Made by a program: the position numbers and the translations under genes. Under the pieces are notes generated by a model, which was given only the letters and a program-made list of their open reading frames with translations, had not been told where the DNA came from and searched no databases. This document shows positions 1,349 through 37,559 of a DNA stretch of 64,000 nt, piece by piece; positions within the stretch are counted from its first letter, which is position 1, and every line of letters starts with the position of its first letter. The stretch is from positions 27,518 to 91,517 of the forward strand of contig JAMPDJ010000012.1 of assembly GCA_023665805.1 (NCBI GenBank), in the 5' to 3' direction. The DNA is from Bacteroides sp. Its GTDB lineage: Bacteria; Bacteroidota; Bacteroidia; Bacteroidales; Bacteroidaceae.

Positions 1349-1349
1349 A

Positions 1350-3708: not shown

Positions 3709-3709
3709 T

Positions 3710-4882: not shown

Positions 4883-4886
4883 AATT

Positions 4887-8974: not shown

Positions 8975-8975
8975 T

Positions 8976-11173: not shown

Positions 11174-11176
11174 ATC

Positions 11177-12310: not shown

Positions 12311-13464
12311 ATATGTAGGATTTTCTTTATTTTTGTAGGATTTTCAATTATTCGGAGGACCTGTCTATACATAGTGCGTATTTTTAGGCCAAACTCTATG
12401 AATTTCAAATTAGCATTCGGCTTTCGGAGATGAGACATTACATAACGATAATCCTTAGCGTGTTGTGCATTCTTCTTCATCTGTCCTTCTGCAACCACCT
12501 CAAACGGATGCTCAATGAGCGTAACGTCTTTCAACCCCTCAACTAGTTCACGGCCTTTCTCGGTGAAAGCGATGAGCGCACTTACACCTTTCTGATCGTT
12601 CTTGTAAGTGTCGCCCCAGAGGTCACCAATGCGGATGTCGGCACTACTGTGGTCATATTTATACTTACATTGCTCTTCGCATTGAGGGCCAAGTGCCACA
12701 TCACCTAGGAATAATTTATAAAACAAATCACCCTTAGATCGCCACGATGTCACCGAACCCTTACTCCCGTTCATCTGCATCGTCCAACTGTCTTGCCACC
12801 CTGTAGGCTTATTTATCCAACTTGCATAAGTAACATTTCCAATCTTTGGTTCGAGCATCTTGATATACGCTTTCCAAGCGTGCATCGAAGGCACGCAATG
12901 ACAGAAAAAATCAAGCAGAATGAAGTTGTCTTCACAACGGAACTTGCGAATCATTATGCGGAATGAGTCAATCTGGCAAGGAGTACCCGTAACTATATAT
13001 TTCTGCCCTTTGCGCTCAATCTGACGGAATGCATAAACCGTATAGCTTTGGATGTACTTGCTGCCGATAGATGCAATGAACTCCTCAACTGTGGTGGCAA
13101 TATAGTGCTCTGCACGCTGATGATTAACATCATATCGGCAACCTACGGCTTTATAACCTTGCTCTATCAGTTGCTTGCCAATTTGGAAGCCAATCCCCCC
13201 ACTAGAGCACTTCCTGCGTATACTTTCGTCATTACTCCATGCCGCCCAACTCTTAATGGGAGTTGCATCAGCATTTGCCAATTCTGTATGTGAAAAGGCG
13301 CACACATCGACACAGATTCCGCAATGCGTACATTGGTTTTCATCCGTTATCCGAGGCTCATAGAAGCCATCGTGGTTAAGCTCAATCGCAATAATCTTTT
13401 TGCCACAGCTGGCAGCACATACGCCACAGCCGTAACAATTTTTTATATCAGAGATATTATTCAT
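12307..13464 (-). CDS. FrhB/FdhB-family ferredoxin-domain protein (second copy)
   Basis: With the start at the ATG of 13464 the protein has 385 residues. It begins with two 4Fe-4S motifs: cysteines 10/13/16/20 (CYGCGVCAASC) and 45/48/51/55 (CTHCGICVDVC). FrhB_FdhB domains follow (KCSSGGIGFQIGKQL, VTGTPCQIDSFR, DFFCHCVPSMHAW). The frame stays open 44 codons upstream, but that part overlaps the flippase and has no family features; the 13464 ATG gives a 4-base ATGA overlap with the flippase stop. The reaction in capsule synthesis is not known. Its pairing with a pyruvyltransferase repeats that at 1350-3708. Confidence 0.86.
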   Translation of the reverse strand: MNNISDIKNCYGCGVCAASCGKKIIAIELNHDGFYEPRITDENQCTHCGICVDVCAFSHTELANADATPIKSWAAWSNDESIRRKCSSGGIGFQIGKQLIEQGYKAVGCRYDVNHQRAEHYIATTVEEFIASIGSKYIQSYTVYAFRQIERKGQKYIVTGTPCQIDSFRIMIRKFRCEDNFILLDFFCHCVPSMHAWKAYIKMLEPKIGNVTYASWINKPTGWQDSWTMQMNGSKGSVTSWRSKGDLFYKLFLGDVALGPQCEEQCKYKYDHSSADIRIGDLWGDTYKNDQKGVSALIAFTEKGRELVEGLKDVTLIEHPFEVVAEGQMKKNAQHAKDYRYVMSHLRKPNANLKFIEFGLKIRTMYRQVLRIIENPTKIKKILHI

Positions 13465-14996: not shown

Positions 14997-16074
14997 TTTT
15001 CCTATATATTTTAAGCAATAAATTATAGATGCACATTCTTCCTTTATCCAACAAAATCCCCCCCCCCCATACAGACAATATAAATAATACGACATCTATA
15101 GTACCTGTTATAAATGGTTGCCTGGTGTAGTATAAATGATTTATCGTTGAACGGTATAAAGGCAGTCTAATGGATACATGTTCATGAAGTAAATAAACTG
15201 CAAAACAACTTGATGCCACCCAATTTATTAGATTACTTTGAAACCTAAATTTAGAGAAGCCTAATAGCAGGAATACTGAGGCTGCTATTACAAAAGGAGA
15301 AGCGTAACTGAAGAATCCTATTATAGCTATAATGCCACCATGACTAAAAAAGGCAACGAAAGATAGTATTATGGTCAAAACCAAATAAACTATAACATCA
15401 TGACTGCCCCTTAGGGATGCCCATACAGGTTGGTATATTCGTACATAACGAGTAAGCATATATATTAAAATGAATGAGATCGTTGAATACCCTGCTTTAA
15501 TTTCTGTAGATAATGTAGGAAATACCCATGCAGCTAACGACTGTATGCAAAATGCAGTGATTAGAAAAAGCTTAAATTGTTTTTTTGGTGAATTCTCGCA
15601 AAATGAGTTTAATACTGGCGAAAATATATATAGTAAAAGATAACAGTCAACAAACCAATAATTTCTGCTACCTAACAACAGACCATCTGTCATAAGATTG
15701 GAAATGGAAAAATCCTTAATATTTGCTATGATAGCAATGATAAATCCTAATATAGAAAAGAATAACACCTGAAATAAAAAAGACAGAATGCCTTTGATCG
15801 AAAATTTAATTCCAAACCATCCTGATATCATTACAAAAACATTGACAGAAACAACACTCAATGCTTTGATCACCCCCAGTAGGTAATACTCCATTCCCAT
15901 TGCATTGGTTTGGTCTGGGTAGCCCACAGCCAATGTTGCATGCGTTAGCATTACAAAGAACATAGATATTATTCTTAGTAATTCTATGTTGGATTGGCGT
16001 ATTTTGATTTTTGGCAAGATATCACATTGTTGTGACATCTGAATACTTTTCTTATTAGATGAATTGTCTGACAT
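14989..16074 (-). CDS. Acyltransferase family 3 with an internal G11 tract (possibly phase-variable)
   Basis: This is a multi-pass O-acyltransferase of 361 residues from the ATG at 16074; a longer start at 16128 is possible. The family motif IELLRIISMFFVMLTHATLA lies near residue 30-50, and SVNVFVMISGWFGI follows. Near the C-terminus eleven Gs in a row (bases 15068-15058 on this strand) encode part of VWGGGILLDK. Tracts of this length slip easily, and loss of one G moves the reading frame into that of the downstream flippase with no stop before its ATG. This is the first capsule gene after the antiterminator and mobile-element remnants, and its expression state could change the surface acyl pattern. 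Confidence 0.87.
   Translation of the reverse strand: MSDNSSNKKSIQMSQQCDILPKIKIRQSNIELLRIISMFFVMLTHATLAVGYPDQTNAMGMEYYLLGVIKALSVVSVNVFVMISGWFGIKFSIKGILSFLFQVLFFSILGFIIAIIANIKDFSISNLMTDGLLLGSRNYWFVDCYLLLYIFSPVLNSFCENSPKKQFKLFLITAFCIQSLAAWVFPTLSTEIKAGYSTISFILIYMLTRYVRIYQPVWASLRGSHDVIVYLVLTIILSFVAFFSHGGIIAIIGFFSYASPFVIAASVFLLLGFSKFRFQSNLINWVASSCFAVYLLHEHVSIRLPLYRSTINHLYYTRQPFITGTIDVVLFILSVWGGGILLDKGRMCIYNLLLKIYRKNG
15058..15068 (-). repeat. G11 homopolymer (C11 on the plus strand)
   Basis: Eleven consecutive Cs on the plus strand inside the last 30 codons of the acyltransferase gene. It is the longest G/C homopolymer I found in the window; others reach 8. Such tracts are classical sites of slipped-strand mispairing. 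Confidence 0.95.
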
Positions 16075-16315
16075 CAATTTGTTGTTATAGTAGTTATATA
16101 ACTGTTTCTTAGCTTGAGCTGCAAGCAAAAAATACGATGAGGGATTAAGAATTAATGACTCCTTTGAGCATCCAACGCTTGTTTGGTATCATCTGAGATT
16201 GTATAATTCATTTTTCTACCAGCATTATTTAGATTTGAGGCGTTCTGTCAAGTATACATGGGTGTCCTTGTTTCTCTCGTTTGAGTTCAGCAAGTGGTGA
16301 TTTTGTGTTGTCTAT
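16075..16315. other. Non-coding stretch between the acyltransferase and the MITE
   Basis: AT-rich sequence upstream of the first capsule gene in the broken leader. I see no open frame with family features and no convincing TAnnTTTG promoter. It may hold remnants of whatever the mobile elements interrupted, and if the acyltransferase starts at 16128 its first 18 codons lie here. Bases 16307-16315 are the left copy of the MITE target duplication. Confidence 0.5.
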
Positions 16316-21622: not shown

Positions 21623-22621
21623 TTACATCTTGTCGTTTGAACCGAGCACGTTCATGATCTTGTGGATGTACATCTTCTTCATGTTCTCGCGAGCGGGCTT
21701 GAGGTACTGGCGAGGATCGAAGTGTCCGGGGTTCTCGGCGAAGTGCTTGCGGATGGCAGCGGTCATGGCCAGACGAGAGTCGGAGTCGATGTTGATCTTG
21801 CAAACTGCGCTCTTGGCAGCCTGACGCAGCTGCTCCTCGGGGATGCCCACTGCATCGGGCAACTTGCCGCCGTACTGGTTGATGGTGTCAACCTCGTCCT
21901 GAGGAACTGAAGATGAACCGTGCAGCACGATGGGGAAGCCGGGCAGCTGCTTTTCGATTTCGGCGAGAACGTCGAATGCCAATGGAGGAGGAACCAGCTT
22001 GCCGGTCTTGGGGTCTACGGTGCACTGCTCGCGAGTGAACTTGTAAGCACCGTGGCTGGTGCCGATGGAGATGGCGAGAGAGTCGCAGCCTGAACGGGTA
22101 GAGAAGTCCACGACCTCCTCGGGCTTGGTGTAGTGGGAAACGGCAGAGGAAACCTCGTCCTCTACGCCTGCCAATACGCCCAGCTCGGCCTCTACGGTTA
22201 CGTCATACTGGTGTGCGTAGTCCACAACTTTCTTGGTGAGGGCGATGTTCTCCTCATAGGGAAGGTGAGAACCGTCGATCATCACTGAGGAGAAACCGTT
22301 GTCGATGCACTCCTTGCAGATCTCAAAGCTGTCGCCGTGGTCGAGGTGCAGTACAATCTGGGGATGCTCGCAGCCCAGTTCCTTGGCATATTCCACAGCA
22401 CCCTGTGCCATGTAGCGGAGGATGGTGCCGTTGGCGTATGCACGTGCGCCCTTGGATACCTGCATGATAACGGGTGACTTGCACTCTACGGCAGCCTGTA
22501 CGATGGCCTGCATCTGCTCCATGGTGTTGAAGTTGAATGCTGGGATGGCATAGCCGCCTGCTACTGCCTTGGCGAACATTTCACGGGTGTTCACCAGACC
22601 CAATTCCTTGTAACTTGTCAT
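21623..22621 (-). CDS. fba: Class II fructose-1,6-bisphosphate aldolase
   Basis: This 332-residue zinc-dependent aldolase of glycolysis and gluconeogenesis cleaves fructose 1,6-bisphosphate to dihydroxyacetone phosphate and glyceraldehyde 3-phosphate in the cytoplasm. Visible landmarks are YAIPAFNFNTMEQMQAI near the start, VLHLDHGDSFEICKECI with the catalytic/zinc HxDH near residue 110, VMIDGSHLPYEENI, and FPIVLHGSSSVPQDEV with a zinc histidine. SIGTSHGAYKF provides the other zinc and phosphate ligands. The length is as usual for the family. A monocistronic unit is likely: it has its own terminator and a 140-base upstream gap. No TAnnTTTG box was found for it. Confidence 0.96.
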   Translation of the reverse strand: MTSYKELGLVNTREMFAKAVAGGYAIPAFNFNTMEQMQAIVQAAVECKSPVIMQVSKGARAYANGTILRYMAQGAVEYAKELGCEHPQIVLHLDHGDSFEICKECIDNGFSSVMIDGSHLPYEENIALTKKVVDYAHQYDVTVEAELGVLAGVEDEVSSAVSHYTKPEEVVDFSTRSGCDSLAISIGTSHGAYKFTREQCTVDPKTGKLVPPPLAFDVLAEIEKQLPGFPIVLHGSSSVPQDEVDTINQYGGKLPDAVGIPEEQLRQAAKSAVCKINIDSDSRLAMTAAIRKHFAENPGHFDPRQYLKPARENMKKMYIHKIMNVLGSNDKM

Positions 22622-22762
22622 TGTTGTAATGTAATTAAAGGGTTATTGTTAGTTTATGAGTTTAGATTCATACCTTAATATATAATATGCGCGCGAAAGA
22701 GCCTCTGTGTGTGTCGCCTCCATGCCGGGAGCTTGCTTGGAGAGACCCTGAGCGTGAATGTG

Positions 22763-23812
22763 TCACAGGGTCTTCACCAGATAGACGACCACAGGAAGGT
22801 GGTCGCTGTATCCGTCAAGCCACACGCCGCGGGAGTGTGTGCGCTTGGGTGTTCCCTTGCCGGCACCTTCGCTCTGGATGAGATAGTCGCGACGGAAGAT
22901 GTGGTAGGAATGCAGTGTGAGGGAATTATAGGTGTTGGCCTTGTATTCCTCGACGAGATTGCTGTTGAGCACTATCTGGTCGAAGAGGTTCCATGCGCCT
23001 TGATAGGATAGCGTTCCTTGGCCTTTCTTGCGGAGAATGTCCCACCAGGGGTTGAAGAAATCACCCTTTCCCATGTCCTTGATGCTGCGACGCGCTCCTA
23101 GGCACTGGGCCATGGAGGCATTGTCGGGGTCATCGTTCATGTCGCCCATTACCATGATGTGCTGGCTCGGGTCGGCCTGGCTGATGCTGTCGGTGAGGGC
23201 GCGTACCTGGCGGCCTCCGTATTCGCGGAAGATGCTTTCCGCTGCACGGCTGGGCCAATGGCATACGATTACCGTGACATTGTCGCCGGCCAGCTTGCCC
23301 TGTACGCACAGGAAGGGACGTGTACGGCGAACGGTGTCGCCATTTTCGTAGACATAGTCCTTGGTGAAGGACTTGGTCACCTTGAAGGCCTTTGGATTGT
23401 AGAGCAGTGCGCAGTCCACGCCACGCTTGTCGGGACCCTCGATGTGGACATAGCGGAAGCCTCGCTTCTGCATGGCCGGCTGTGCCATGAGGTCGTCCAA
23501 GGCTCGGGAGTTCTCCACCTCGCTGACACCTATGATGCTGGCGCCATAGGGCAGCTTGTCTGTACCCAGCTCGCCGAGCACACGGGCGAGATTGGCCAGT
23601 TTGTGTTCGTACTTGAGCTTGTTCCAATGGTAGGAACCGTCGGGCGTGAATTCCCAGTCGTTCTTGCCTTCGTCGTGGCAGGTGTCAAACAGGTTCTCCA
23701 GATTGTAGAAGGCCACGGCGTGCATCTGCAGTTTGCGGTCCTGGGCAAAAGCCTGCAGTGCCAAGGCGCATACAAGAAGAAGAAGGATGGGCAGGCGGTA
23801 CGTTCTTTTCAT
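22763..23812 (-). CDS. Secreted endonuclease/exonuclease/phosphatase family protein
   Basis: This 349-residue protein has a Sec signal peptide (MKRTYRLPILLLLVCALALQAFAQ), so it is exported to the periplasm or surface. The EEP (DNase I-like) fold shows AVAFYNLENLFDT, IIGVSEVENSRALDDL with the metal-binding Glu, VIVCHWPSRAAES, VMGDMNDDPDNAS and YSDHLPVVVYL with the catalytic SDH. It would hydrolyse phosphodiesters in nucleic acids or a related substrate. The ATG at 23812 is used because the signal peptide starts there. It is divergent from the TonB-dependent receptor, which suggests a shared nutrient role. A short inverted repeat overlaps its stop codon. Confidence 0.9.
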   Translation of the reverse strand: MKRTYRLPILLLLVCALALQAFAQDRKLQMHAVAFYNLENLFDTCHDEGKNDWEFTPDGSYHWNKLKYEHKLANLARVLGELGTDKLPYGASIIGVSEVENSRALDDLMAQPAMQKRGFRYVHIEGPDKRGVDCALLYNPKAFKVTKSFTKDYVYENGDTVRRTRPFLCVQGKLAGDNVTVIVCHWPSRAAESIFREYGGRQVRALTDSISQADPSQHIMVMGDMNDDPDNASMAQCLGARRSIKDMGKGDFFNPWWDILRKKGQGTLSYQGAWNLFDQIVLNSNLVEEYKANTYNSLTLHSYHIFRRDYLIQSEGAGKGTPKRTHSRGVWLDGYSDHLPVVVYLVKTL

Positions 23813-23891
23813 AAAATACATCGTTGTTTTGGGGTGCCATGGTGTCGTAGTGTCGTATGCCTACGGCTATCCATGCTATATTCATGCACTG

Positions 23892-23899
23892 CAAAGTTA
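23892..23899 (-). promoter_or_regulatory. Candidate -7 element for the EEP-family gene
   Basis: TAACTTTG on the minus strand matches TAnnTTTG, about 80 bases before the start codon. No TTTG at -33. Confidence 0.5.
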
Positions 23900-23973
23900 G
23901 TGCTTTTTTGGGAAAAAGGGGGGCTTTAGTGTGAAAATTAACAGAGTGTCACCGTTTTGCAGATATTTCTTCA

Positions 23974-23981
23974 TAACTTTG
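23974..23981 (+). promoter_or_regulatory. Candidate -7 element for the TonB-dependent receptor operon
   Basis: TAACTTTG, 36 bases upstream of the start codon at 24018. A TTTG occurs upstream but only 14 bases away, so the -33 box is not canonical. It forms a divergent pair with the element at 23892. Confidence 0.55.
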
Positions 23982-24017
23982 TAGTGACAAAATATATTAT
24001 AAAAGACATTAAACATT

Positions 24018-26582
24018 ATGAAGAAACAGTTTCAACTGACGGCTCTGGTTCTGTTGGCGGCCATGAACGGCTGGGCGCAGGGCATTGCAGAGTCGGAGGA
24101 GGATTCGACCGTCATGGCCATTGATGCCAGCGATTTTACCATCTCGGAGTCGCAATTGGGCGAAGATGACGATATGACCTCGGACATCATCCAGGTGGGT
24201 TCTTCCAGCAATCTCTACACCAGCAACATCGGCTGGACATGGAGTGTTGCCAGATTCAAGTTCCGTGCATTGGACAACAAGTACAATGACGTGTACATCA
24301 ACGGAGTGCAGGCCAACCAGGTGGAGAGCGGACGTTTCCAGTTCTCCAATATAGGCGGTATGAACGACGCGGCCCGGAACAAGGATGCGGCAAACCCGTT
24401 CGAGAGCAATTCATATGGCATGCCCGGTCTGGGCGGAAGCACCAATTATGACTTCCGTGCCTCTGCCATGAGTACCGGCAGCAAGGTGACCTTGAGCGGA
24501 CTGAACCGCAACTACACGTTGCGTGGCGTCTTTTCGCACGGTACGGGGCTGAGCAAGAACGGTTGGGCCTTCTATGGCTCCTTGGCTTACCGTTGGAGCA
24601 ATATGGAAACAGCTGCCGCGGATGGTACTTTCTACAACAGCCTATCGTATCTGCTGTCCTTGTCAAAGAAGTGGGACAACGGCCATTCTCTGAATCTCGC
24701 CACATGGGGCAATCCCACGGAACGTGCCCAGCAGGGCGCCAGCACGGACGAGGCTTATTGGTTGGCCAATGACCGTCAGTACAATCCCTATTGGGGCTGG
24801 CAGAACGGCAAGAAGCGTGCCAGCCGCGTGGTGAACGATTTCGCGCCCACGGTGATGCTGACCTGGGACTGGCAGATAAACAACGACATGAAGCTGACCA
24901 CGAGTGCGATGATGCGTTATCAGCTTTACAGCAGCACCAAGTTGGACTACAGCGGCACCAATCCCGCTCCGGACTATTGGAAGAACTTCCCGTCATACAA
25001 TTATGACGTGTGGGGCGATACGGACGGAAGCAACAATAATCTGGATGCCTATAATTCGGCAAAGGAATACTGGCAGAGCGGTACGCGTGCACGCCAGATT
25101 GATTTCGATGAGCTGTACTTCTCCAACCAGCAGCTGAACAAGACGCAGAGCGATGCCATCTACTGGATTCAGGCTCGCCATAACGACCATCTGACGACTT
25201 CGCTGGGCAGCAACTTCAGCTGGAATACCGACAAGGACGGCAAGTTCAATGCCGGCATACAGTTGAGCAATACCAACGGCATGCACTACCAGACGGTGGA
25301 GGACCTGTTGGGCGGAGAGTATTTCCATAATACGGACCGTCACCTTGTGGGCACGTATACCGACGACGATACTCGTGTGGACTATGACCTGAACAATCCC
25401 AACAAACGTCTGAAGGTTGGCGACCGTTATGCGTACGACTATAATATAATGGTGCAGAAGTTCAACGCCTATACTTCATACGCCCGCAACATGGGGATCA
25501 GTCACACTTATGTCGCAGCCCGTCTGGGCGGTTCGCGCATGTGGCGCGAGGGCAACATGAGGAACGGCCTTTTTGCGGACAACAGTTATGGCGAGAGTGG
25601 CGTGGCAGGCTTCTTGGACGGTGGCGTGAAGTTGGCCAGCACGATGAATCTGGGACATGGACATGCCATCAGCCTGGGTGCGGGATTCGAGGCCAAGAGT
25701 CCCAATGCGCGCGATGCCTTTATCTGTCCCGAGAAGATGAACGACTTTGTGTATAACCTCAGGAACGAGAAGATTGCCAGTGCCGAGGTGACCTATAGCT
25801 TGAACAACAGCTGGTTGCGCCTGAACCTGACAGGATTCTTCAACCACAAGTATGACGGCACGGAGTGGTCTTGTTTCTATGACGACAACGAAAGCAGCTT
25901 CGTGTATGTCAGCTCGCAGAATATCACAAAACGCAACTATGGTGTGGAATTGGGAGCCAAGTTCAATATTACGTCCAACTTCGACATCACCCTCTTGGGC
26001 ACATGGTCCGAGGCGGAGATTGTCGGTAACACCGATGTGGACTATATGCTCTCCGACAAGGGCGAATTGCGTCGTACAGTATGTTTTGCCGACGGCATGC
26101 GCGAGGGTGGTACGCCTTTGGCTGCTGCAAGCGTCGCGCTCAATTACCGCGTGAACGGTTGGTTCTTGGGCCTTACAGGCAATTACTACGACCGCATATA
26201 CCTGAGCTATAGTCCCGTGACGCGCCTTAAGTCTGTTCAGGACCTGTGGGCCAAGAACAACTATGGCGGTGCCTACATCGATGTGGACGGTACTCCGGTA
26301 TATGCCATCCCCGAGCAGGCCAAAGGCAATGGCGGTTTCGTCTTGGATGCATCCATAGGCCGACAGTTCCGTTTGGGCAAGAATCCTCTGAGCGTGAATC
26401 TCAACCTGAGCAACATTACCAACAACCGCAGCCTGTGTACCGGCGGCTATGAGCAGAGCCGTGCCAATTACAGTGTAAGCGATGGCGCGATAACCAATCG
26501 TACCTATAACTTCCTGAAGAACCCCAAGAAGTACTATGCTCAGGGTATCAACTTTATGCTGAACCTGAACTATCGCTTCTGA
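24018..26582 (+). CDS. TonB-dependent receptor, outer-membrane beta-barrel
   Basis: This 854-residue protein has a signal peptide (MKKQFQLTALVLLAAMNGWAQ). The N-terminal part to about residue 190 resembles a plug domain (KYNDVYINGVQANQVESGRF and the GGMNDAARNKDA segment), and the rest is barrel strands rich in alternating aromatic residues, ending in LNLNYRF with the terminal Phe needed for barrel insertion. It lacks the usual N-terminal carboxypeptidase-like domain and an obvious TonB box, so energy coupling is inferred. No SusD-like partner is nearby; two lipoproteins follow instead. Context (secreted nucleases, OB-fold lipoproteins) points to nucleic-acid fragments or phosphorylated compounds as ligand. 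Confidence 0.85.
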   Translation: MKKQFQLTALVLLAAMNGWAQGIAESEEDSTVMAIDASDFTISESQLGEDDDMTSDIIQVGSSSNLYTSNIGWTWSVARFKFRALDNKYNDVYINGVQANQVESGRFQFSNIGGMNDAARNKDAANPFESNSYGMPGLGGSTNYDFRASAMSTGSKVTLSGLNRNYTLRGVFSHGTGLSKNGWAFYGSLAYRWSNMETAAADGTFYNSLSYLLSLSKKWDNGHSLNLATWGNPTERAQQGASTDEAYWLANDRQYNPYWGWQNGKKRASRVVNDFAPTVMLTWDWQINNDMKLTTSAMMRYQLYSSTKLDYSGTNPAPDYWKNFPSYNYDVWGDTDGSNNNLDAYNSAKEYWQSGTRARQIDFDELYFSNQQLNKTQSDAIYWIQARHNDHLTTSLGSNFSWNTDKDGKFNAGIQLSNTNGMHYQTVEDLLGGEYFHNTDRHLVGTYTDDDTRVDYDLNNPNKRLKVGDRYAYDYNIMVQKFNAYTSYARNMGISHTYVAARLGGSRMWREGNMRNGLFADNSYGESGVAGFLDGGVKLASTMNLGHGHAISLGAGFEAKSPNARDAFICPEKMNDFVYNLRNEKIASAEVTYSLNNSWLRLNLTGFFNHKYDGTEWSCFYDDNESSFVYVSSQNITKRNYGVELGAKFNITSNFDITLLGTWSEAEIVGNTDVDYMLSDKGELRRTVCFADGMREGGTPLAAASVALNYRVNGWFLGLTGNYYDRIYLSYSPVTRLKSVQDLWAKNNYGGAYIDVDGTPVYAIPEQAKGNGGFVLDASIGRQFRLGKNPLSVNLNLSNITNNRSLCTGGYEQSRANYSVSDGAITNRTYNFLKNPKKYYAQGINFMLNLNYRF

Positions 26583-26617
26583 CATAAATAATATATATAA
26601 GGTATATAGACACAGAC

Positions 26618-27493
26618 ATGAAAAAGATAAAGATATTTGCTGCACTCTTCGTGGGTGCGATATGCCTGAGTTCCTGTATGGACGGGGAGTGGGAAGCTCC
26701 CGACTTTGGCGATAAGCCTCCTTACGGCAACAATGACATTGTTCCCGTGCCGTCCAAGAAAATCACCATAGCCGGATTGAAGACCAAGTATGCCGACGTC
26801 TTCAGCAAGAGAAGCGGTTACAAGTATGTGGACGAGGACTTGCAGTTGTATGCCGTTGTCAACGGCAACGATCAGGGTGGCAACCTGTACAAGCAGATTT
26901 CCATCCAGGACGAGACCGGTGGTATCATAGTCGGTATCAATGCCACTGACTTGTATGCCCCCATGCCGGTGGGGCAGAAGATTGTCATCAATCTCAAGGG
27001 CCTTTGCATAGGTACCTACGGCAGTATGGCTCAGATTGGCGGTGAGTACAACGGTAGCCTCGGACGTATGGACGAGAACGTGTGGAAGGCCAACGTCCGT
27101 CTGGTTGGCGACAAGGTGTCTGTCGGCGGGGATGGTAACGAGCAGGCCGAGGTGCCCATGACGGCAGTGGTTGACACCATCGACTTCACCAAGGTCAGCG
27201 ATCCGAACAGTATCAGTGGCCGTATAGTGCGTTTGAGCAATGTCACCATCAGTGGAGATGGCACGCAGACTCTGGCTCCTGATGACGGCAGCGTGAGTCT
27301 CACCAGCAATTGCGCCAACCGCAATATAGGCGGTGCAGCCGTATCGGGCATGGTTCTGCGTACAAGTTCCTACAGCGACTTTGCTTCACGTCCCATGCCT
27401 AAGGGTAAAGTGGACCTTTACGGTGTCTGCACTCATTTCAACGGCACGTATCAGATTCTCATGCGCACAAACAGTGACATGGTGGAGCTGTAA
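26618..27493 (+). CDS. DUF5689-like surface lipoprotein
   Basis: This 291-residue lipoprotein has a signal MKKIKIFAALFVGAICLSSC with the lipid-attached Cys20, followed by MDGEWE. Acidic residues right after the Cys are the known Bacteroidetes signal for surface display. Residues about 45-170 look like a DUF5689 OB-fold (YAVVNGNDQGGNLYKQISIQ, GGIIVGINATDL, GQKIVINLKGLCIGTYG), and a second similar module may follow. OB-folds often bind nucleic acid or oligosaccharide. It starts 35 bases after the receptor stop with a TATATATAAGGTATAT stretch between, and is almost certainly co-transcribed with it. It is probably a capture lipoprotein for the receptor. Confidence 0.8.
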   Translation: MKKIKIFAALFVGAICLSSCMDGEWEAPDFGDKPPYGNNDIVPVPSKKITIAGLKTKYADVFSKRSGYKYVDEDLQLYAVVNGNDQGGNLYKQISIQDETGGIIVGINATDLYAPMPVGQKIVINLKGLCIGTYGSMAQIGGEYNGSLGRMDENVWKANVRLVGDKVSVGGDGNEQAEVPMTAVVDTIDFTKVSDPNSISGRIVRLSNVTISGDGTQTLAPDDGSVSLTSNCANRNIGGAAVSGMVLRTSSYSDFASRPMPKGKVDLYGVCTHFNGTYQILMRTNSDMVEL

Positions 27494-27552
27494 ATGCCAC
27501 AGTTGAATACAATATAACATTTTTCCATAGGAATAATATCACAAATATCAAT

Positions 27553-29544
27553 ATGAACAAGTATTTCAAGCACATCATGCTCATCTCCGTGGCAGCATTT
27601 GCATTGGCTGCCTGCGAGGACGTTCCCGCTCCATTTGTCGTACCCGGTGAGGGCGGTGACAACACCGATGGAGAAATTTCTCTCCCTTACATCAGTACCA
27701 ATTTGAAGGAGGGCTTCACCGTGGCCACCACCACAGGTATCAGTTGGGATTTGGGTAACACCTATGCCAAGGCCACAGGTTACAATGGCGGCACCACATC
27801 TGCTACGGAAACATGGCTCGTTAGCCCGGAGATTCCCACGGGTGATGCCACCGAGGTGTATGTGGATTTTGATTACGTCATAGCATACACCAACTCTCTT
27901 GGTATCAACGAGGCTCATCAGGTATACGTATGCTCTGAGTATAACAGTGAGGAACCGGCTTCCAGCCAATGGGTAAAGTTGCCTTTCCAGCCTAAGGAGC
28001 GTGAGGATCGTAACTCATGGGATATGTATGCAGCCAACACCATGCAGGTTCCTGCCGAGATGTTGGGCGGCAGTATTCGCGTTGGCTTCCTGTACAAGTG
28101 TAACACCACCAGTGCCTCTACATGGGAGTTGACCAATCTGAAGGTCTCTACCGAACCTGGTGGTACGATTAACCCGGATATTCCAGATGTTCCATCGGAT
28201 GGCGGTACATGGGACGCTCCCTACACCGTGGCACAGGCTATCGCCAATCAGACGGGGGCTGAGGTATGGGTGCATGCTTACATCGTAGGCTCGATTCCCA
28301 GTAGTGCAAGTTCTGTGGTTTTGGATAACATGACGTTCACTGCTGATGGTGCCAGCGGTACCAACATTTGTATAGCCGAGAGTGCCACGGAGACCACACC
28401 TGCCAACTGTATTCCCGTACAGCTTCCTGCTGGAACTGATGCTCGCACCAAATTGAATCTGGCTTCCAATCCCACCATGCTGGGACAGGAGGTATGGCTA
28501 AAGGGTAAGACCATCAAGTACTGCGGTGCTCCTGGGCTGAAGGAAATTAGTACTTACACCCTCACTGCTCCCACTGCCGAGGACGATGGTAACGGCGGAG
28601 GTTCTGACGAACCTGTAGAGGGTGCCAAGGGCGATGGCTCACAGGCCAATCCATTCAATGCGGCAGCAGCACAGAACTACACAGCAGCACTGCCTGCCGG
28701 ACAGACCACAACGGAGAAGTTCTACATCAAAGGCATTGTCTGTATGAGCAGCAAGATGGACATCAGCACACAGTATAAGAATGCCACATTCCATATTTCG
28801 GAGGATGGCAGTGCCACAGGCACACAGTTCCTTATCTTCCGCACAAGCGGTCTGAACGGAGCCGACATCACCTCTGCAGATGATATACAGGTGGGCGATG
28901 AGGTGGTGGTCTATGCGGCTTTGGTCAACTACATGGGCAACACACCTGAGACTGCACAGGGTGGAATAATCACCTCTATCAAGCGTAACGGCCAAGAGCT
29001 GAATCCTGGAGGTGGGAACGAAGGTGGCGACAACGAGGGTGGCGACACTCCCGACGTTCCTGCCGGAGAGAATATTCTGGAGAATGGTGACTTTGAGGTT
29101 TGGGACGGTGGCACTCCGCTGAACTGGAAGACTACAACATCCGCAAGTAACGCCACATTGGCGCAGAGCACTGAGGCGCGTACCGGTTCATATGCCGTGT
29201 CTGTGGGCTATGCTTCTGCCAACAAACGCCTTGGCTATAAGGAGACCACTCTGCCTGCCGGTACATACCGTTTCAGTTTCTATGCCAAAGCCACAACTGA
29301 CAGCAAGTGTCAGACACGTATTGGCTATGTAGTGGTCAAGGACGGTACTGTCAATGCTTCTGACTACACCTATAAGGACGGATTTGTAGATCTTAGCCTG
29401 ACAGATTGGACACAGGCATCGTACGACTTCACGCTGACAGAGGAGACCACCATCTCACTCTTGATGATGTCACCCAAGGGTTCCAGTTTCCATACCTCAC
29501 AGAATATTTTGGTGGACGATGCAACACTTGTAAAACTCCAGTAA
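27553..29544 (+). CDS. Multi-domain surface lipoprotein with OB-fold-like (DUF6359-type) and jelly-roll domains
   Basis: This is a 663-residue lipoprotein: MNKYFKHIMLISVAAFALAAC with Cys21 followed by EDVPAP, an acidic surface tag. Domains in order: residues 35-200, a choice-of-anchor-J-like beta-sandwich (ETWLVSPEIPTGDATEVYVD); about 220-340, an OB-like domain (WVHAYIVGSIPSSASSVVL); about 355-485, a second OB-like domain (EKFYIKGIVCMSSKMD, GDEVVVYAALVNYMGN); a Gly/Glu/Asn linker; and about 510-663, a carbohydrate-binding-like jelly roll (ENILENGDFEVWDGGTP). No catalytic motif is seen, so binding is the likely role. It is third in the receptor operon and is followed by a terminator. Confidence 0.8.
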   Translation: MNKYFKHIMLISVAAFALAACEDVPAPFVVPGEGGDNTDGEISLPYISTNLKEGFTVATTTGISWDLGNTYAKATGYNGGTTSATETWLVSPEIPTGDATEVYVDFDYVIAYTNSLGINEAHQVYVCSEYNSEEPASSQWVKLPFQPKEREDRNSWDMYAANTMQVPAEMLGGSIRVGFLYKCNTTSASTWELTNLKVSTEPGGTINPDIPDVPSDGGTWDAPYTVAQAIANQTGAEVWVHAYIVGSIPSSASSVVLDNMTFTADGASGTNICIAESATETTPANCIPVQLPAGTDARTKLNLASNPTMLGQEVWLKGKTIKYCGAPGLKEISTYTLTAPTAEDDGNGGGSDEPVEGAKGDGSQANPFNAAAAQNYTAALPAGQTTTEKFYIKGIVCMSSKMDISTQYKNATFHISEDGSATGTQFLIFRTSGLNGADITSADDIQVGDEVVVYAALVNYMGNTPETAQGGIITSIKRNGQELNPGGGNEGGDNEGGDTPDVPAGENILENGDFEVWDGGTPLNWKTTTSASNATLAQSTEARTGSYAVSVGYASANKRLGYKETTLPAGTYRFSFYAKATTDSKCQTRIGYVVVKDGTVNASDYTYKDGFVDLSLTDWTQASYDFTLTEETTISLLMMSPKGSSFHTSQNILVDDATLVKLQ

Positions 29545-29564
29545 GCATCTTCGTATATATGAAT

Positions 29565-29597
29565 AAAGGCCGCCAAGTTGTTAGCTTGGTGGCCTTT
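29565..29597 (+). terminator. Intrinsic terminator of the receptor/lipoprotein operon
   Basis: AAGGCCGCCAAG pairs with CTTGGTGGCCTT across a 7-base loop, one G-T pair, followed by a T-rich stretch. It lies 20 bases after the stop codon. Confidence 0.85.
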
Positions 29598-29619
29598 GTG
29601 TGATTTAGTCCCCCAAATG

Positions 29620-29651
29620 TTTGGACGTAAGGATAAAAAGCATTACCTTTG
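29620..29651 (+). promoter_or_regulatory. Promoter of rpmE2
   Basis: TTTG at 29620-29623 and TACCTTTG at 29644-29651 with a 20-base spacer: a full match to the Bacteroidetes primary sigma consensus. Start of transcription near 29658, leaving a leader of about 75 bases. Confidence 0.85.
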
Positions 29652-29731
29652 CAGCCGATAATCATTAACCACGTCCCTTATCATCTTCCTCAAGTCAAGG
29701 AAATTCGGGGACACAAAACTACTTAAGAAGT

Positions 29732-29983
29732 ATGAAACAAGGAATTCATCCCGAGAATTACCGTCCCGTTGTGTTCAAGGACATGAGCAACGGTGACATG
29801 TTCCTGAGCCGTTCAACCTGCAAGACCTCTGAAACCGTAGAGTTCGAGGGTCAGGAGTATCCTGTAGTAAAGTTGGAAATCTCCAGCACTTCTCACCCTT
29901 TCTACACTGGTAAGAACAAGTTGGTGGATACTGCCGGTCGCGTGGACAAGTTCATGAACCGTTACGCCAAGACCCGCAAGTAA
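29732..29983 (+). CDS. rpmE2: Ribosomal protein L31, type B (zinc-independent)
   Basis: This 83-residue large-subunit ribosomal protein starts [18 protein letters not shown] and includes [24 protein letters not shown], the L31 signature. It has a single Cys and lacks the CxxC zinc ligands, so it is the type that does not need zinc. The gene stands alone, with its own promoter upstream and a T-tailed hairpin downstream, and separates the receptor operon from the endonuclease gene that fits the same theme. Confidence 0.97.
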
Positions 29984-30031
29984 TTCGTGCTTGAACCGTG
30001 CACAAGGTGCAACAATAGACTTAAAAAGAAG

Positions 30032-30063
30032 ATGTGTCATACCTGTTATGGCACATTTTTTTT
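30032..30063 (+). terminator. Intrinsic terminator of rpmE2
   Basis: ATGTGTCATA pairs with TATGGCACAT (one G-T pair) around the loop CCTGT, followed directly by eight Ts. Confidence 0.9.
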
Positions 30064-30147
30064 GCTAATGCGACGTCTGGTGTTGATTGTGCTTATGCAC
30101 ACTTGAAATAAATACAATTAGTTCGCGCAATTATATATATAAGGTAT

Positions 30148-31113
30148 ATGAAACTGCATTTTGCTATGGGGCGTTTTCTGCTTCCGGTCATTTGCCTGTC
30201 GGTGATGTGCATGGCTGTTTCTTGCGAAGAGGGAATACCGGGTCCGGCCGAGGGAGATGTGTCAACCAATGACAATGCCAATGTGCCTACTGTGGCAGAA
30301 GCCATGCGTATAGAGATTCCGCACTTGAAGGATGGGACGCATAACCAGTTCATAGTCAAGACGGCCAAGTTGAGGGACAATTCCTCCCAAACCTTTGTCA
30401 ACTACTGTGTCGAGTATGACCAGCAGAAGAAATCCTCTCGTTGGACCGCTTTTCGTTGGGATATAGACAATGTCTACGACAGCCACTGTGGCAGGGTAGG
30501 GAATTATGCCCCGGATACGGATGTGCCTTTGGAGTATCGTGTCGGTAGCGGGGCATTTCGCGGTTATCAGCGTGGGCACATGTTGGCCAGCGAGGACAGA
30601 CAGTGCTCGTCTGAGGCTAATATCCAGACGTTCCTTATGACGAACATGCACCCGCAGTATGGCCGCTTTAATGGTTATGACGACAAGGGGGATTATGTGT
30701 GGCTGAATGCCGAGTCTTTGATACGTGGCCTCTACAGTGGTTGGACTCAGGCTTACAATTCCACGGATACAATCTATGTGGTCAAGGGTGGTACCATAGA
30801 TTCTGAACGCGATATACTGGGATATACCAGCAACAGCAATACGGACAACATCATAGTTCCGGGGTACTTTTACATGGCCCTGCTCTATAAGACAGGCAGG
30901 TCGCAGACCCAGGGCGGCTACAAGGCCATAGCCCTATGGATACCACATCGCGAGGGCGATACCACCAAGGGTAGTGACATAGCCCGCAAGTATGCAATCA
31001 GCATAGATGAACTGGAGCAGAAGACGGGCATAGACTTCTTCTGTAACCTTCCAGATGACATAGAGGATGTTGTGGAGCGCAACTATTCCCTTGCTGCCTG
31101 GGGATGGAACTGA
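30148..31113 (+). CDS. DNA/RNA non-specific endonuclease, surface lipoprotein
   Basis: This 321-residue nuclease of the NucA/Serratia endonuclease (Endonuclease_NS) family cuts single- and double-stranded DNA and RNA with a metal-bound water. The catalytic motif is YQRGHMLASEDR with His144, and the metal-binding Asn is expected in MTNMHPQYGRFNG. The lipoprotein signal ends LSVMCMAVSC (Cys26) and is followed by EEG, so it is probably displayed on the cell surface. The ATG lies at the end of a TATATATAAGGTATATG stretch; a second ATG six codons in is also possible. It ends convergent to the DUF3256 gene. It fits the receptor operon upstream as the enzyme that makes fragments for uptake. Confidence 0.93.
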   Translation: MKLHFAMGRFLLPVICLSVMCMAVSCEEGIPGPAEGDVSTNDNANVPTVAEAMRIEIPHLKDGTHNQFIVKTAKLRDNSSQTFVNYCVEYDQQKKSSRWTAFRWDIDNVYDSHCGRVGNYAPDTDVPLEYRVGSGAFRGYQRGHMLASEDRQCSSEANIQTFLMTNMHPQYGRFNGYDDKGDYVWLNAESLIRGLYSGWTQAYNSTDTIYVVKGGTIDSERDILGYTSNSNTDNIIVPGYFYMALLYKTGRSQTQGGYKAIALWIPHREGDTTKGSDIARKYAISIDELEQKTGIDFFCNLPDDIEDVVERNYSLAAWGWN

Positions 31114-31146
31114 GACATGGTATGCTTGATTACAGGGAAAAGCCTT

Positions 31147-31791
31147 TTACCGGACTTCTTTCACCACGGGTTGCAGATATTTGTCTGCAACCTTTTTTTG
31201 TTCTTTGGTGAACTCCGATGTTTGCAGCGTCCATGTTATCTCTGTGGAACCCGAAGAAAGTGTGGCCTTCATCAAGGGAAGAAACTCGGCCTCTTGGCGA
31301 AGCATGCGCATGGTGTCGGTGGCAGCCTCGGTGGTGAGGGGCGAGACGCTGGCTGGCAGTTTAATAAATTCGGACACGGCAGGGCGGTGGATCCGGCGCA
31401 ACAGCGCCCAGTTCTTGTCGTATAGCTTTACCTCGCTGTCAGGCGTGGTTCCCATGTATGTGCGGTTGACACAGATAGAGGTGTCATTGCCCTGAGCTTG
31501 CGGCACGAGTTTCATCTCCACGTAAGACGACGTGCTTGTCTGTATACGCAGGTAATCTTCCGTCAAGGAATCCAGCACCACATGCTGGTCGAAGCGGTTC
31601 TTTACCCTTGCCTCTATGTCGTTTTCTATGAAGTCTATGCAGTCCAGACGGTTGTTTCTGGTCATATACGGCAGTACGGAATCCGGCAGTTGTGCAAAGA
31701 CATCACGCATTCTCATTTGTGCCGAGGCCGAAATGGACAGTGCCGCGCAGGCAAGCAATAGCACTTTTCTTTTATTATATATGCTGGTCAT
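31147..31791 (-). CDS. DUF3256 family secreted protein
   Basis: This 214-residue protein with a signal peptide (VLLLACAALSISASAQ) continues MRDVFAQLPDSVLPYMTRNNRLDCIDF, the start typical of the DUF3256 family of Bacteroidetes. The function is unknown. It is the last gene of the minus-strand run DUF308 protein, endonuclease I, truA, DMT transporter. In related genomes a DUF3256 gene often follows truA and the transporter, from memory of the family's context. No catalytic motif was recognised; it is probably periplasmic. Confidence 0.8.
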   Translation of the reverse strand: MTSIYNKRKVLLLACAALSISASAQMRMRDVFAQLPDSVLPYMTRNNRLDCIDFIENDIEARVKNRFDQHVVLDSLTEDYLRIQTSTSSYVEMKLVPQAQGNDTSICVNRTYMGTTPDSEVKLYDKNWALLRRIHRPAVSEFIKLPASVSPLTTEAATDTMRMLRQEAEFLPLMKATLSSGSTEITWTLQTSEFTKEQKKVADKYLQPVVKEVR

Positions 31792-33572: not shown

Positions 33573-35057
33573 CTACTTCACATATAACTTTCCATTGACT
33601 ATCACCATCCCCTTGGCCTCGCTCCACTTCACTGGGCGTCCGGTCAGGTCGTATGCACGGTCATTGTCCGACGGGAGGTTGTTGTCCTTGATGTCCTCTA
33701 TGCCTGTTGTGTCCATGGTACCGGTCACTGTCACGTTGCGTATCTCCCATCCGAAACATGCGGATGGGGTGGAGGTGTAGCGGAATGCCAGGCAGATGCG
33801 CCGGCCTGCGTATGCCTTCAGGCTGATGTCACCCGAAGCAAGCTCTTTGGTCCAGTTGGAAGATGGAGGGGCAGGGAAATCCGCATCCAGGTGTTCCCAG
33901 TCAGTGGCGGAGGGTACACCGGCATAATCATCGCTTACGAGGATGGAGAAGTAGGTGTCTTTTACTGAGGCGGAGGTATTGAAACCGGTCTGGTGCACGA
34001 AAGTCAGTGTGGCGTCACTGTATCCGGTCAAGTCCACTTCGGCCAGCAGGTAGTTGTCGGCTGCCTGTGCACTGCCCTTGAAGGCGTTTGCCACGGCACC
34101 GTAACGGGTATCGCTTCTCCATAGGCTGCCCGGAGTGCCGTCTGGCAGCCTGTCGGCAAAGATTCCCAGACCATCGGTCAATGTCTCGTCCACCACTGTC
34201 TTGGCCTCGCCGGGATTGGGGTCCGGGTCGGGTGTGGGATCCGTGGTTGTCTTGTCGGGGTAGAAGGCGAAGTCGATGCTGTCGCCCCAGATGTATTCGC
34301 ACAAGTTGGGAAAATCCACGAAAGGATTGCGGTTGCCCTGTATGTCATATACGGCCTCGTTGCGTGCTATTTCTATTTCGTCCACAGGATCCTCCCGCGA
34401 CCATCTCAACACCATTTCCATGGTCCATTCGTTGAAAGTAGGCCACTGGTTGTTGTCCAGCTGGTCCAGACCGTTGCTCGTCCATGTCAGGTCGCTGTAG
34501 CATGTCACCATGTACATATATGTACGCGCGAAGTCTCCCTTCCATTTGTCCTCCGGCTCCCAGATGCTGTTCTTTATCTTGTTGCCCTTGCCCACTTTTA
34601 TGCTGCCGTTGTCGTAGCTGGCGTTTGTCACCTCGCCCATGGCATAATTGCTCTTGGAGGAGTTGGCTTTGGAGTCGCTTGGCATCAGGTTGAACAAATC
34701 CTTGTATGCCTGTATCTGGCTGCCTCCCCACCAGCTCTTGGCGAAGGAGTGCTCTATGTTCATTCCGCTGATTGCTCCTGTCTGGGAAGTGAACTGCCGG
34801 CGTTCGGGGCTGTATCTGTCTATGCAGTACCCGTCCTCTGTTTGGTCCGTGTAGTAGAAGCCGCTCCATGTCTTGCCCGCTCCGCTGCCGTAGTTCAGCA
34901 CGGATGCCGTGCGTATGATCTCGTGTAGCGCGGCTTTCAGTTCCGCCTTTTTCTTTCCGGATGTGGCGGAGTAATAATGTTCCGGATGTCCGGCCAGGGC
35001 AAAGTGCGCGCAAGCGCACAGCATTGTTGCAAATGCGAATAGTCTGAACGTTTTCAT
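33573..35057 (-). CDS. Secreted endonuclease I with C-terminal jelly-roll and possible sorting tail
   Basis: This 494-residue protein has a signal peptide (MKTFRLFAFATMLCACAHFALA). The endonuclease I (EndA-type) domain spans about residues 25-250: GMNIEHSFAKSWWGG with catalytic His103, then DLFNLMPSDSKANSSKSNYAMG. It would cut extracellular DNA or RNA. A Pro/Asp linker (DPTPDPDPNPGEAK) leads to a choice-of-anchor-J-like sandwich (about 285-450). The last 30 residues (YDLTGRPVKW to IVNGKLYVK) resemble the tail of the 1,889-residue glycosidase at 37937. It overlaps the upstream DUF308 gene by 4 bases. With the EEP protein and the lipoprotein endonuclease this is the third extracytoplasmic enzyme of probable nuclease type within 13 kb. 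Confidence 0.92.
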   Translation of the reverse strand: MKTFRLFAFATMLCACAHFALAGHPEHYYSATSGKKKAELKAALHEIIRTASVLNYGSGAGKTWSGFYYTDQTEDGYCIDRYSPERRQFTSQTGAISGMNIEHSFAKSWWGGSQIQAYKDLFNLMPSDSKANSSKSNYAMGEVTNASYDNGSIKVGKGNKIKNSIWEPEDKWKGDFARTYMYMVTCYSDLTWTSNGLDQLDNNQWPTFNEWTMEMVLRWSREDPVDEIEIARNEAVYDIQGNRNPFVDFPNLCEYIWGDSIDFAFYPDKTTTDPTPDPDPNPGEAKTVVDETLTDGLGIFADRLPDGTPGSLWRSDTRYGAVANAFKGSAQAADNYLLAEVDLTGYSDATLTFVHQTGFNTSASVKDTYFSILVSDDYAGVPSATDWEHLDADFPAPPSSNWTKELASGDISLKAYAGRRICLAFRYTSTPSACFGWEIRNVTVTGTMDTTGIEDIKDNNLPSDNDRAYDLTGRPVKWSEAKGMVIVNGKLYVK

Positions 35058-35843: not shown

Positions 35844-37436
35844 TCACTTGTAATTGCCGAGGTTCTGTTCAATCTCGAATGGCACACGCACGGAAACCCC
35901 ATGCTTCATCAACTTCATTATGTTGGGATACATCCTGTTCTTGAACGACTTCCAGTCCCTGTTCTCCATATCTGTCCATCCGGCTTCTGCAAGGGCCAGG
36001 CCTCTCGGGTAGGCCATATATGTGGCCCGGTTGATGTCTTTTATGGCTTCTCCCCACAATGTGGCCATGACGCCCATTATGTGCTCCTGCTTCTTCCCGG
36101 CTTGTCCGTATCCCGGGTCAAAACCATAGCAAGTCTCGAGGGTCGTGATTGGCATGCCCCAATTGTTGAATTCCGGAAAATCCCCTTTGTACTGTGGATA
36201 GTCCAGATAGGCATATTCGCCAGGAGCCATTATCAACGGATTGCCGTGGTCGTGTGTCAACTCCAGGCATTTGGGCGTAAGCCCTCCGCGCCAACTTACA
36301 AGTACGGTTTCTTTCGGATAGGGGAAAAGATAGTCGTTTGCGGGCGGGTATATGTTGTCAAGCTCACACCATAGAATGGTTCGTTTGCCGTTTTTCTTTA
36401 CGCTTTTCATTACCTTGGCAAAGAATGGAATCATAAGTTGTGACGGCTTGCTGTATCCCGATTTCTCCATGAGCCTGTTGCATCTCGGACATTTTGCCCA
36501 ATTGTCTGCAATTGCCGCCTCGTCTCCTCCCAGATGTATGTATTCCGCCGGGAACATGCCTGCAATCTCCTTTATTATGTCGTCAATCACAGAATATACG
36601 CCGTCCGCCGACGCACAGAGCATCATGTTTACGGTTTTTCCAATCTCGACGGAAACGCTGTCCCTGTGTCCGCATTTGAACTCGGGGAAGGCGGCGAGCA
36701 TTGCGCTGGTGTGCCCGGGAATGTCCAGTTCAGGAACGACCGTGACGTTGCGTTGCGCGGCGTAACGGACAATCTCCTTGATATCTTCTTTGGTATAGTG
36801 GTCTTTGCTGGCCAGTTGTGGATACTTGTCTATATGGATTCTCCATCCTTGGTCGTCGGTCAGATGCAGTTGCAACACATTGTACTTGTATTGTGACATT
36901 TGGTCTATGAAGAACTTTACGCTTTCCACAGGCAGAAAGTTGCGTGCCGGATCCAGCATGAACGCCCTGTAGCCAAAACGCGGTGTGTCGTTGATGCATA
37001 TCCCCTTGACCTTGTGCCTGGAGGTGTGGCATCTGTCCCCCATGAGTATTTGTTCCAGCGTGACGACACCGTAAAAGACGGCTCCTTTGGAGGCACCTCG
37101 TATGACAATGCCGTCGTTGCTTACATCTATGGTGTATTGTTCCTTGTTTTTGAGTGTATGGTCAAGAAGCAGTTTCAGCTCTCCGTCTCCGTCTTTGGAT
37201 ATGTTCACTGTTTCCTGCATATTCTCATAGATTGCATCCTGGAGTTTCCCGGCAGCGAATGAGAGTTCGTCGGAGCCGATGTAAATGGATGTCTTCTTTC
37301 CGTCAATGGTAAAGCATACGTCCGTGTTTTTCAACGAAATTTCATTAGGCATGGGCAGCAAAGCCGAAAGGTTGTCCTGTGCGACCATGGAAGAACAGGA
37401 CAACACGCCAACAATCACAAACAGCAAATGTTTCAT
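35844..37436 (-). CDS. Glycoside hydrolase family 20 beta-N-acetylhexosaminidase
   Basis: This secreted 530-residue enzyme removes terminal GlcNAc/GalNAc from glycans by substrate-assisted catalysis. The signal peptide is MKHLLFVIVGVLSCSSMVAQ, so I use the ATG at 37436 and not the longer frame. The GH20b domain (about 25-150) is followed by the TIM barrel from RYRAFMLDPARNFLP-like RFGYRAFMLDPARNFLPVES, then VLQLHLTDDQGWRIHIDKYP, and EYIHLGGDEAAIADNWAKCP with the catalytic Asp-Glu pair. The length is usual for the family. It is divergent from the larger GH20/sialidase gene across 500 bases, so both probably serve host-glycan use. Confidence 0.94.
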   Translation of the reverse strand: MKHLLFVIVGVLSCSSMVAQDNLSALLPMPNEISLKNTDVCFTIDGKKTSIYIGSDELSFAAGKLQDAIYENMQETVNISKDGDGELKLLLDHTLKNKEQYTIDVSNDGIVIRGASKGAVFYGVVTLEQILMGDRCHTSRHKVKGICINDTPRFGYRAFMLDPARNFLPVESVKFFIDQMSQYKYNVLQLHLTDDQGWRIHIDKYPQLASKDHYTKEDIKEIVRYAAQRNVTVVPELDIPGHTSAMLAAFPEFKCGHRDSVSVEIGKTVNMMLCASADGVYSVIDDIIKEIAGMFPAEYIHLGGDEAAIADNWAKCPRCNRLMEKSGYSKPSQLMIPFFAKVMKSVKKNGKRTILWCELDNIYPPANDYLFPYPKETVLVSWRGGLTPKCLELTHDHGNPLIMAPGEYAYLDYPQYKGDFPEFNNWGMPITTLETCYGFDPGYGQAGKKQEHIMGVMATLWGEAIKDINRATYMAYPRGLALAEAGWTDMENRDWKSFKNRMYPNIMKLMKHGVSVRVPFEIEQNLGNYK

Positions 37437-37559
37437 AGATACTTTGATTTCAAGGACCAACCGGGAGTCCCTTGGGGTTAGTATTTGGTCCGGACTGTTC
37501 CCCCGGTCCATGTCTTGTTTTTGGCTGGGGAATCACGCTCACGTACCTGATATGTGCCA

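Follow-up and report, generated by a model that had tools for sequence, protein, structure and literature searches.

A Bacteroides locus encoding a predicted TonB-dependent receptor, a DUF5689 lipoprotein, and an EEP-family nuclease as a candidate DNA-import device

Gene content of the locus

We analyzed a 64,000-nucleotide stretch of contig JAMPDJ010000012.1 from Bacteroides sp. (hereafter, the window), whose source assembly comprises 2.66 Mb in 39 contigs with a completeness of 89.6%. A preliminary description had read part of the window as a nucleic-acid capture and uptake system resembling the Sus systems, and the six genes that it named are all present at the coordinates given (Table 1). 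As judged from comparative analysis, three of them, which encode an outer-membrane receptor, a DUF5689 lipoprotein, and a divergently oriented EEP-family nuclease, probably constitute a DNA-import device.

Table 1. Genes and other features of the locus, in window coordinates
Feature	Position	Strand	Basis or remark
EEP-family (DNase I/ExoIII fold class) exported nuclease/phosphatase	22763–23821	−	PF19580, E 3.9e-90
Intergenic stretch (196 bases) separating the divergent EEP and receptor genes	23822–24017		Sequence read directly
Outer-membrane receptor, predicted TonB-dependent transporter	24018–26582	+	Structure model; reciprocal best hit
DUF5689 lipoprotein, predicted OB-fold	26618–27493	+	PF18942, E 4.2e-57
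Second (DUF6359) lipoprotein	27553–29544	+	PF19886/DUF6359, E 4.3e-33; choice-of-anchor-J and CBM_4_9 stretches
Strong RNA hairpin, likely transcription terminator	29563–29599	+	Folding energy versus shuffles
Ribosomal protein L31 type B-like gene (83 amino acids)	29732–29983	+	Named by eye; outside the system, interrupts the cluster
DNA/RNA non-specific (NS) endonuclease lipoprotein, accessory part	30148–31113	+	PF01223, E 1.6e-34
Endonuclease I with choice-of-anchor-J tail, loosely associated	33573–35057	−	PF04231, E 6.2e-44; NF038128, E 8.3e-9

The receptor, DUF5689, and DUF6359 genes are spaced 35 and 59 bases apart and are probably cotranscribed. The hairpin downstream of them (−26.4 kcal/mol, z −7.8, with none of 200 shuffles as good) was absent from the list of a simple terminator-like scan, which was at chance level. 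Together with the L31-like gene, it sets the NS endonuclease gene apart from that of the second lipoprotein; both elements had been missed in the preliminary description. Because they intervene, the NS endonuclease gene is likely a separate transcription unit, and a single operon for all genes was rejected for it. The clustering described earlier thus holds for gene positions and co-occurrence, but not as one operon. A scan of 22600–31300 gave 8 promoter-like sites against 9.2 expected from shuffles, i.e., no excess, and an Rfam search of 16000–46000 returned no match.

Neither Pfam nor NCBIfam gave a match to the receptor at E ≤ 0.01, SusC-type, Plug, and CarboxypepD_reg families included, yet the best Foldseek matches of its structure model (pLDDT 65.8) were TonB-dependent transporters (E 2.1e-21, TM on the query 0.49). 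Residues 1–90 and 103–139 had pLDDT below 50, and the plug was poorly modeled. On the basis of the model, we predict that the receptor is a TonB-dependent transporter barrel, as its earlier designation as a divergent receptor of this kind had implied. No sequence relative was found in the PDB, where a wider receptor profile retrieved OprC only (E 0.014–0.015). The PF13620 domain is missing from the N-terminus; we did not take it as defining the locus type because it varies among relatives (absent in L119, present in L127 and L128). In addition, no SusD-type match appeared for the ten proteins of one profile scan or the six of another, in agreement with the proposal of a receptor without SusD.

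The lipobox cysteine of the DUF5689 protein, Cys20, was invariant in 33 sequences, and acidic residues directly after the lipobox cysteine, which had been described as acidic surface tags, were recognized by eye in the lipoproteins. The structure model of the DUF5689 protein had a pLDDT of 82.2, and its neighbors were nucleic-acid-binding OB domains, the nearest solved structures including those of HIN-200, RPA, Teb1, MCM10, and LysRS. Its first half (about residues 19–187) is predicted from the model to be an OB fold; the second half (188–291) was OB-like, but was barely covered by aligned rows. Foldseek pairings with two-OB HIN domains spanned 231–245 columns. We do not claim a specific HIN relation, only an OB fold, since HIN domains ranked below LysRS domains. 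No PDB sequence relatives of this protein were found.

The second lipoprotein contains a choice-of-anchor-J domain (residues 67–198), a DUF6359 domain (224–337), a second DUF6359-like domain (about 350–480), and a CBM_4_9 domain (507–632); the two DUF6359-like domains matched each other (hhalign probability 95.7, E 1e-8). In profile comparison with DUF5689, its four parts gave probabilities below 1, and no solved relative was found. Of the two lipoproteins said to be OB-fold-like, therefore, the DUF5689 protein retained this description through its model neighbors, but the DUF6359 protein did not.

No lipobox was seen by eye in the EEP protein, which is therefore predicted to be periplasmic. 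Its residues N40, E101, H188, D227, N229, D340, and H341, which we take to be the EEP motif residues, were each present in at least 95% of 80 aligned sequences. In the NS endonuclease, H144, N166, N175, and E189 were each found in at least 98% of 46 aligned sequences, and Cys26 was conserved in at least 95% of them. Lipobox-like strings near the start were observed in 70 of 80 DUF5689, 62 of 65 DUF6359, and 28 of 46 NS endonuclease frames. Cutting outside the cell had been put forward as the first step of the system; nothing in the present analysis shows that it comes first.

Conservation of the gene set

We investigated the distribution of the gene set with a receptor-alignment scan of named genomes, which gave 373 relatives, from which the best 80 loci were kept. 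Their titles were Bacteroidales-type (Bacteroidaceae, Prevotellaceae, and the like), except for one Clostridium sp. metagenome-assembled genome (L057). Loci were scored by position with matches at E ≤ 1e-5; contigs that ended early were left out, the window was counted, and a duplicate (L001) was dropped. The EEP gene was upstream of the receptor in 79/79 scorable loci, on the opposite strand in the rows examined, and the DUF5689 gene was downstream in 80/80. Next came, in 76/77, a match to at least part of the DUF6359 protein (the miss being L063). Other neighbors included an aldolase (64/74), DUF3256 (30/61), EamA (27/59), and TruA (26/60).

The nucleases other than EEP were less constant: among scorable loci, 48 of 69 had the NS endonuclease near the receptor, and 19 of 58 had endonuclease I there. 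Among the 48 loci with the NS endonuclease, the L31-like gene lay in between in 27, was near but not between in 12, and was not found in 9. Where the NS endonuclease was absent from that place (21 loci), there was no L31-like match within 9 kb either. These frequencies bear on nutritional scavenging, in which a Sus-like system would cut DNA or RNA outside and import the fragments as a source of phosphate, nucleosides, or carbon, without any transformation role in this lineage. Such a system would account for the two nuclease genes near the receptor besides EEP and for the surface NS endonuclease in most loci, but not for the 21 loci that lack it there or for the rarity of endonuclease I, and we consider it rather unlikely. 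The surface nuclease lipoprotein would also suit the degradation of extracellular DNA for biofilm or host-trap escape, with the receptor clearing the products; however, the receptor, DUF5689, and EEP genes persist where no surface nuclease was found beside them, and this explanation is very improbable.

At the class level, a receptor profile built from 23 sequences (E ≤ 1e-60, at most three candidates scored per genome) found 64 strong places (at least 447 bits) and 14 weak ones (327 bits or less) across 72 of 295 Bacteroidia genomes. Of the 64 strong places, 61 had a same-strand DUF5689 match no more than 1 kb downstream, and of the 14 weak ones none did; the class genomes are related, and these counts are not independent events. 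The exceptions were G076, with receptor and DUF5689 on different contigs, G102, with split contigs, and G036, which is 69% complete and gave no DUF5689 match. PF18942 itself matched in 113 of the 295 genomes. A strong receptor was present in every one of the 63 genomes whose DUF5689 match reached 79 bits, a threshold set after seeing the list, and the other 50 had weaker matches and no strong receptor. Among 14 control genomes, PF18942 matched in Bacteroides ihuae and Bacillus subtilis; the latter match may, we presume, be the YhcR nuclease with OB domains.

Approaching from the lipoprotein gave a similar picture. Twenty loci were retrieved at good DUF5689 matches; the receptor was adjacent in all of them, and an EEP gene was present in the stretch in 18 (not in L112 and L121). 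It was placed divergently upstream in 14; in L128 and L129 it was also upstream but in the same orientation, and in L115 and L116 it came after the DUF5689 gene. Additionally, 29 of 30 short loci at the best DUF5689 matches, the window's own included, contained a receptor piece (the exception being L098 of G076), which was not directly beside DUF5689 in L093, L104, and L107. The expected co-occurrence of the gene set elsewhere was thus borne out in the relatives' loci, the fetched loci, and the class-wide scan. The near-constant EEP partner of the receptor/DUF5689 pair is new here, as is a Bacteroidales form in which domains are split and further nucleases are added. Two tandem DUF5689 genes were observed behind the receptor in L119, L120, L124, L126, and L130. 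A weaker receptor paralogue (263 bits; G021:C2:325690-328299) was observed about 10 kb from the main receptor of genome G021, with no DUF5689 match beside it.

Relation to natural transformation in Riemerella anatipestifer

In genome G445 (2,164,087 bases, one contig), the same three genes stand side by side, in the order RecA, four genes, ComEC, two genes, EEP (−), receptor (+), and DUF5689 (+), with a ComF-like gene about 42 kb and DprA about 46 kb further on. RecA, ComEC, EEP, the ComF-like phosphoribosyltransferase, and DprA were checked with Pfam. This order fits the locus tags of R. anatipestifer ATCC 11845, which advance in steps of five: RA0C_RS04870 (RecA), 04895 (ComEC), 04915, and 04920, the last two of which would be the receptor and DUF5689 genes. 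The match by tags covers 04870 to 04920; ComF has the tag 05105, and between it and DprA (05130) the G445 frame list has three genes versus four implied by the tags. The G445 receptor carries PF13620 and its DUF5689 protein carries PF18942 and PF16409, agreeing with PMC8459023. Because gene order and Pfam domains agree with that report, we take G445 to be R. anatipestifer.

The window proteins are related to this pair. The two receptors, homologous over most of their length, shared 26% identity (834 alignment columns, E 3e-75), the DUF5689 proteins 29% over 214 (E 2e-13), and the EEP protein 33% over 400 with its positional counterpart in G445 (E 3e-61). The best place for the window receptor in G445 was at the receptor/DUF5689 pair (225.8 bits; next, 57.7), as it was in G021 and G294, and in the reverse search the window receptor was the sole match to the G445 receptor in the window's genome, making the two reciprocal best hits. 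The DUF5689 part of the window protein also matched the NCBIfam model of the M949_1556 lipoprotein family (NF052645; E 1.1e-25), but its 90 bits fell below the 475-bit cut-off. The same held for ten DUF5689 proteins of distant loci (140.6–179.9 bits), of which nine adjoin a receptor and one is the second of a tandem (L130). This model exceeded its cut-off in 2 of 395 class genomes; within the family of those two, 46 of 148 were over the cut-off and 144 of 148 had some match. Over-cut-off members in G021 and G445 adjoin the receptor.

According to PMC8459023, neither the RA0C_RS04915 nor the RA0C_RS04920 markerless mutant could be transformed. It is this phenotype, together with the presence of the same three genes side by side in G445, on which our proposal of DNA import rests. 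By the G445 gene order, RA0C_RS04910 would be the EEP gene; in the text of the paper, RA0C_RS04910 is named only as an upstream gene with unchanged transcription, and the nuclease that produces single strands is left unidentified in the transformation model. The paper describes homologues of the four unknown proteins as distributed across Bacteroidetes and also says that a homologue of RS04915 was found only in Flavobacteriaceae. In the literature searched (without bioRxiv and with few subscription papers), DUF5689 appeared only in PMC8459023, and no title concerned a DNA-carrying TonB receptor. Scavenging fits these data less well, since in R. anatipestifer the homologous pair is required for taking up DNA that becomes integrated.

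TonB receptors mostly carry small ligands, and the receptor might import another ligand or serve the envelope, the loss of transformation in R. anatipestifer being indirect. Reports that M949_1556 is associated with lipopolysaccharide (PMC4976936) and that a SusC/RagA-type gene also affects transformation, as well as the acidity of the proteins, would be in line with this. Conversely, the near-exclusive receptor–DUF5689 linkage with an EEP nuclease gene close by, the OB-fold likeness of the DUF5689 model, and the loss of transformation on each single deletion (PMC8459023) argue against it, and we regard such an indirect role as improbable.

The rest of a DNA path is partly recognizable. The window's genome encodes ComEC, DprA, and a 338-amino-acid helix-hairpin-helix (HhH) protein, families that also match 10, 11, and 11 of the 14 control genomes, respectively. 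Several points weigh against a complete path of the R. anatipestifer kind. The frame of ComEC is short, with the Competence domain only. DUF1343 (PF07075), whose protein is essential for transformation in R. anatipestifer and is encoded outside the receptor/DUF5689 locus, was not found in the window's 89.6%-complete genome. Both of these would suit scavenging. The HhH protein was not supported as an orthologue of RA0C_RS02645, as a search of G445 gave no match. Counting against DNA import itself, F. johnsoniae is non-transformable, the locus lipoproteins are acidic, and the net charge of the DUF5689 protein, −7, does not favor DNA or RNA binding; the lipopolysaccharide association and the SusC/RagA-type gene mentioned above count on the same side.

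Several further features were observed. By eye, the listed start of the ComEC frame (L186:2387-3421) runs through a tRNA gene end, with an integrase-like gene upstream. In G445, a Cas9-like protein of 1145 amino acids and Cas1/Cas2-like genes, recognized by eye (L172:1090-6531), begin some 1.4 kb past the DUF5689 gene. In the window, 14 listed frames on the minus strand (800–16128) resemble, by eye, a surface polysaccharide cluster with flippase- and acyltransferase-like genes. A plus-strand gene there (37937–43606) encodes a 1889-amino-acid protein fusing GH20 with a sialidase-like BNR stretch (BNR below cut-off), and a GH20 gene (35844–37511) adjoins it.

Proposed DNA path and comparison with known systems

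In the proposed import device, DNA would bind the predicted OB-fold lipoproteins at the cell surface, a step proposed from the structure model. The TonB-energized receptor would then pass the DNA through the outer membrane, and the periplasmic EEP nuclease, a candidate for the missing R. anatipestifer nuclease, may trim or nick it. Finally, the HhH protein and ComEC, encoded elsewhere, would take a strand to the cytoplasm, where DprA, also encoded, could have a role. In the Bacteroidales form, which adds the DUF6359 lipoprotein and, in many cases, a surface NS endonuclease, part of the DNA may also serve as food. We infer the function in this organism at every step. More broadly, and with slightly less than even confidence, we suggest that Bacteroidota possess a DNA importer distinct from the type IV pilus/secretin route, in which a TonB receptor threads DNA, OB-fold lipoproteins load it, and an EEP nuclease makes the strand for the HhH protein and ComEC, and that the window encodes the same machine plus surface nucleases.

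A TonB-driven DNA receptor would also explain part of the TonB phenotypes of R. anatipestifer. According to PMC8383284, tonBA and tonBB mutants showed lower transformation; the authors put the tonBB effect down to iron, whereas for tonBA, where iron gave no explanation, they suggested nutrient transport. It is this tonBA effect that such a receptor would account for.

If the proposal is true, a TonB receptor carrying DNA would bear on gene transfer in gut communities, and how this phylum moves DNA across its outer membrane would become testable. The locus provides a named, widely conserved Bacteroidales candidate for outer-membrane DNA passage in Bacteroidota, and EEP is named as the nuclease partner, whose gene PMC8459023 mentions only as part of a transcription control. 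For Porphyromonas gingivalis, the outer-membrane DNA step was called unclear, the conjugation pilus not being involved (PMC11532111, 2024).

The closest known counterpart is the pair RA0C_RS04915/RA0C_RS04920, in which, as in the window, the receptor is followed by the DUF5689 protein, with EEP divergently upstream in G445. This EEP neighbor was found in the present analysis and falls outside the definition of the pair in PMC8459023. The window differs in that its receptor lacks PF13620, its DUF5689 protein is short, and an NS endonuclease is added. In Flavobacteriia-type proteins, choice-of-anchor-J is fused behind DUF5689, whereas in the window it lies in the next lipoprotein with DUF6359.

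Like SusC/SusD glycan uptake systems, the locus combines a TonB-type barrel with lipoproteins and enzymes at the surface, but it has no SusC- or SusD-family match, and its core contains nucleases and no glycan enzymes. Of the preliminary description, import is supported by the homologous pair with a transformation phenotype, whereas a nucleic-acid Sus system is not established, because the homologues are known from gene transfer rather than feeding, the NS endonuclease lies behind the hairpin and another gene, and endonuclease I is infrequent. Type IV pilus/secretin DNA uptake works with ComEA and ComEC. The window's genome resembles that system in encoding ComEC, DprA, and an HhH protein, and differs in that the outer-membrane step would be taken by a TonB-type receptor.

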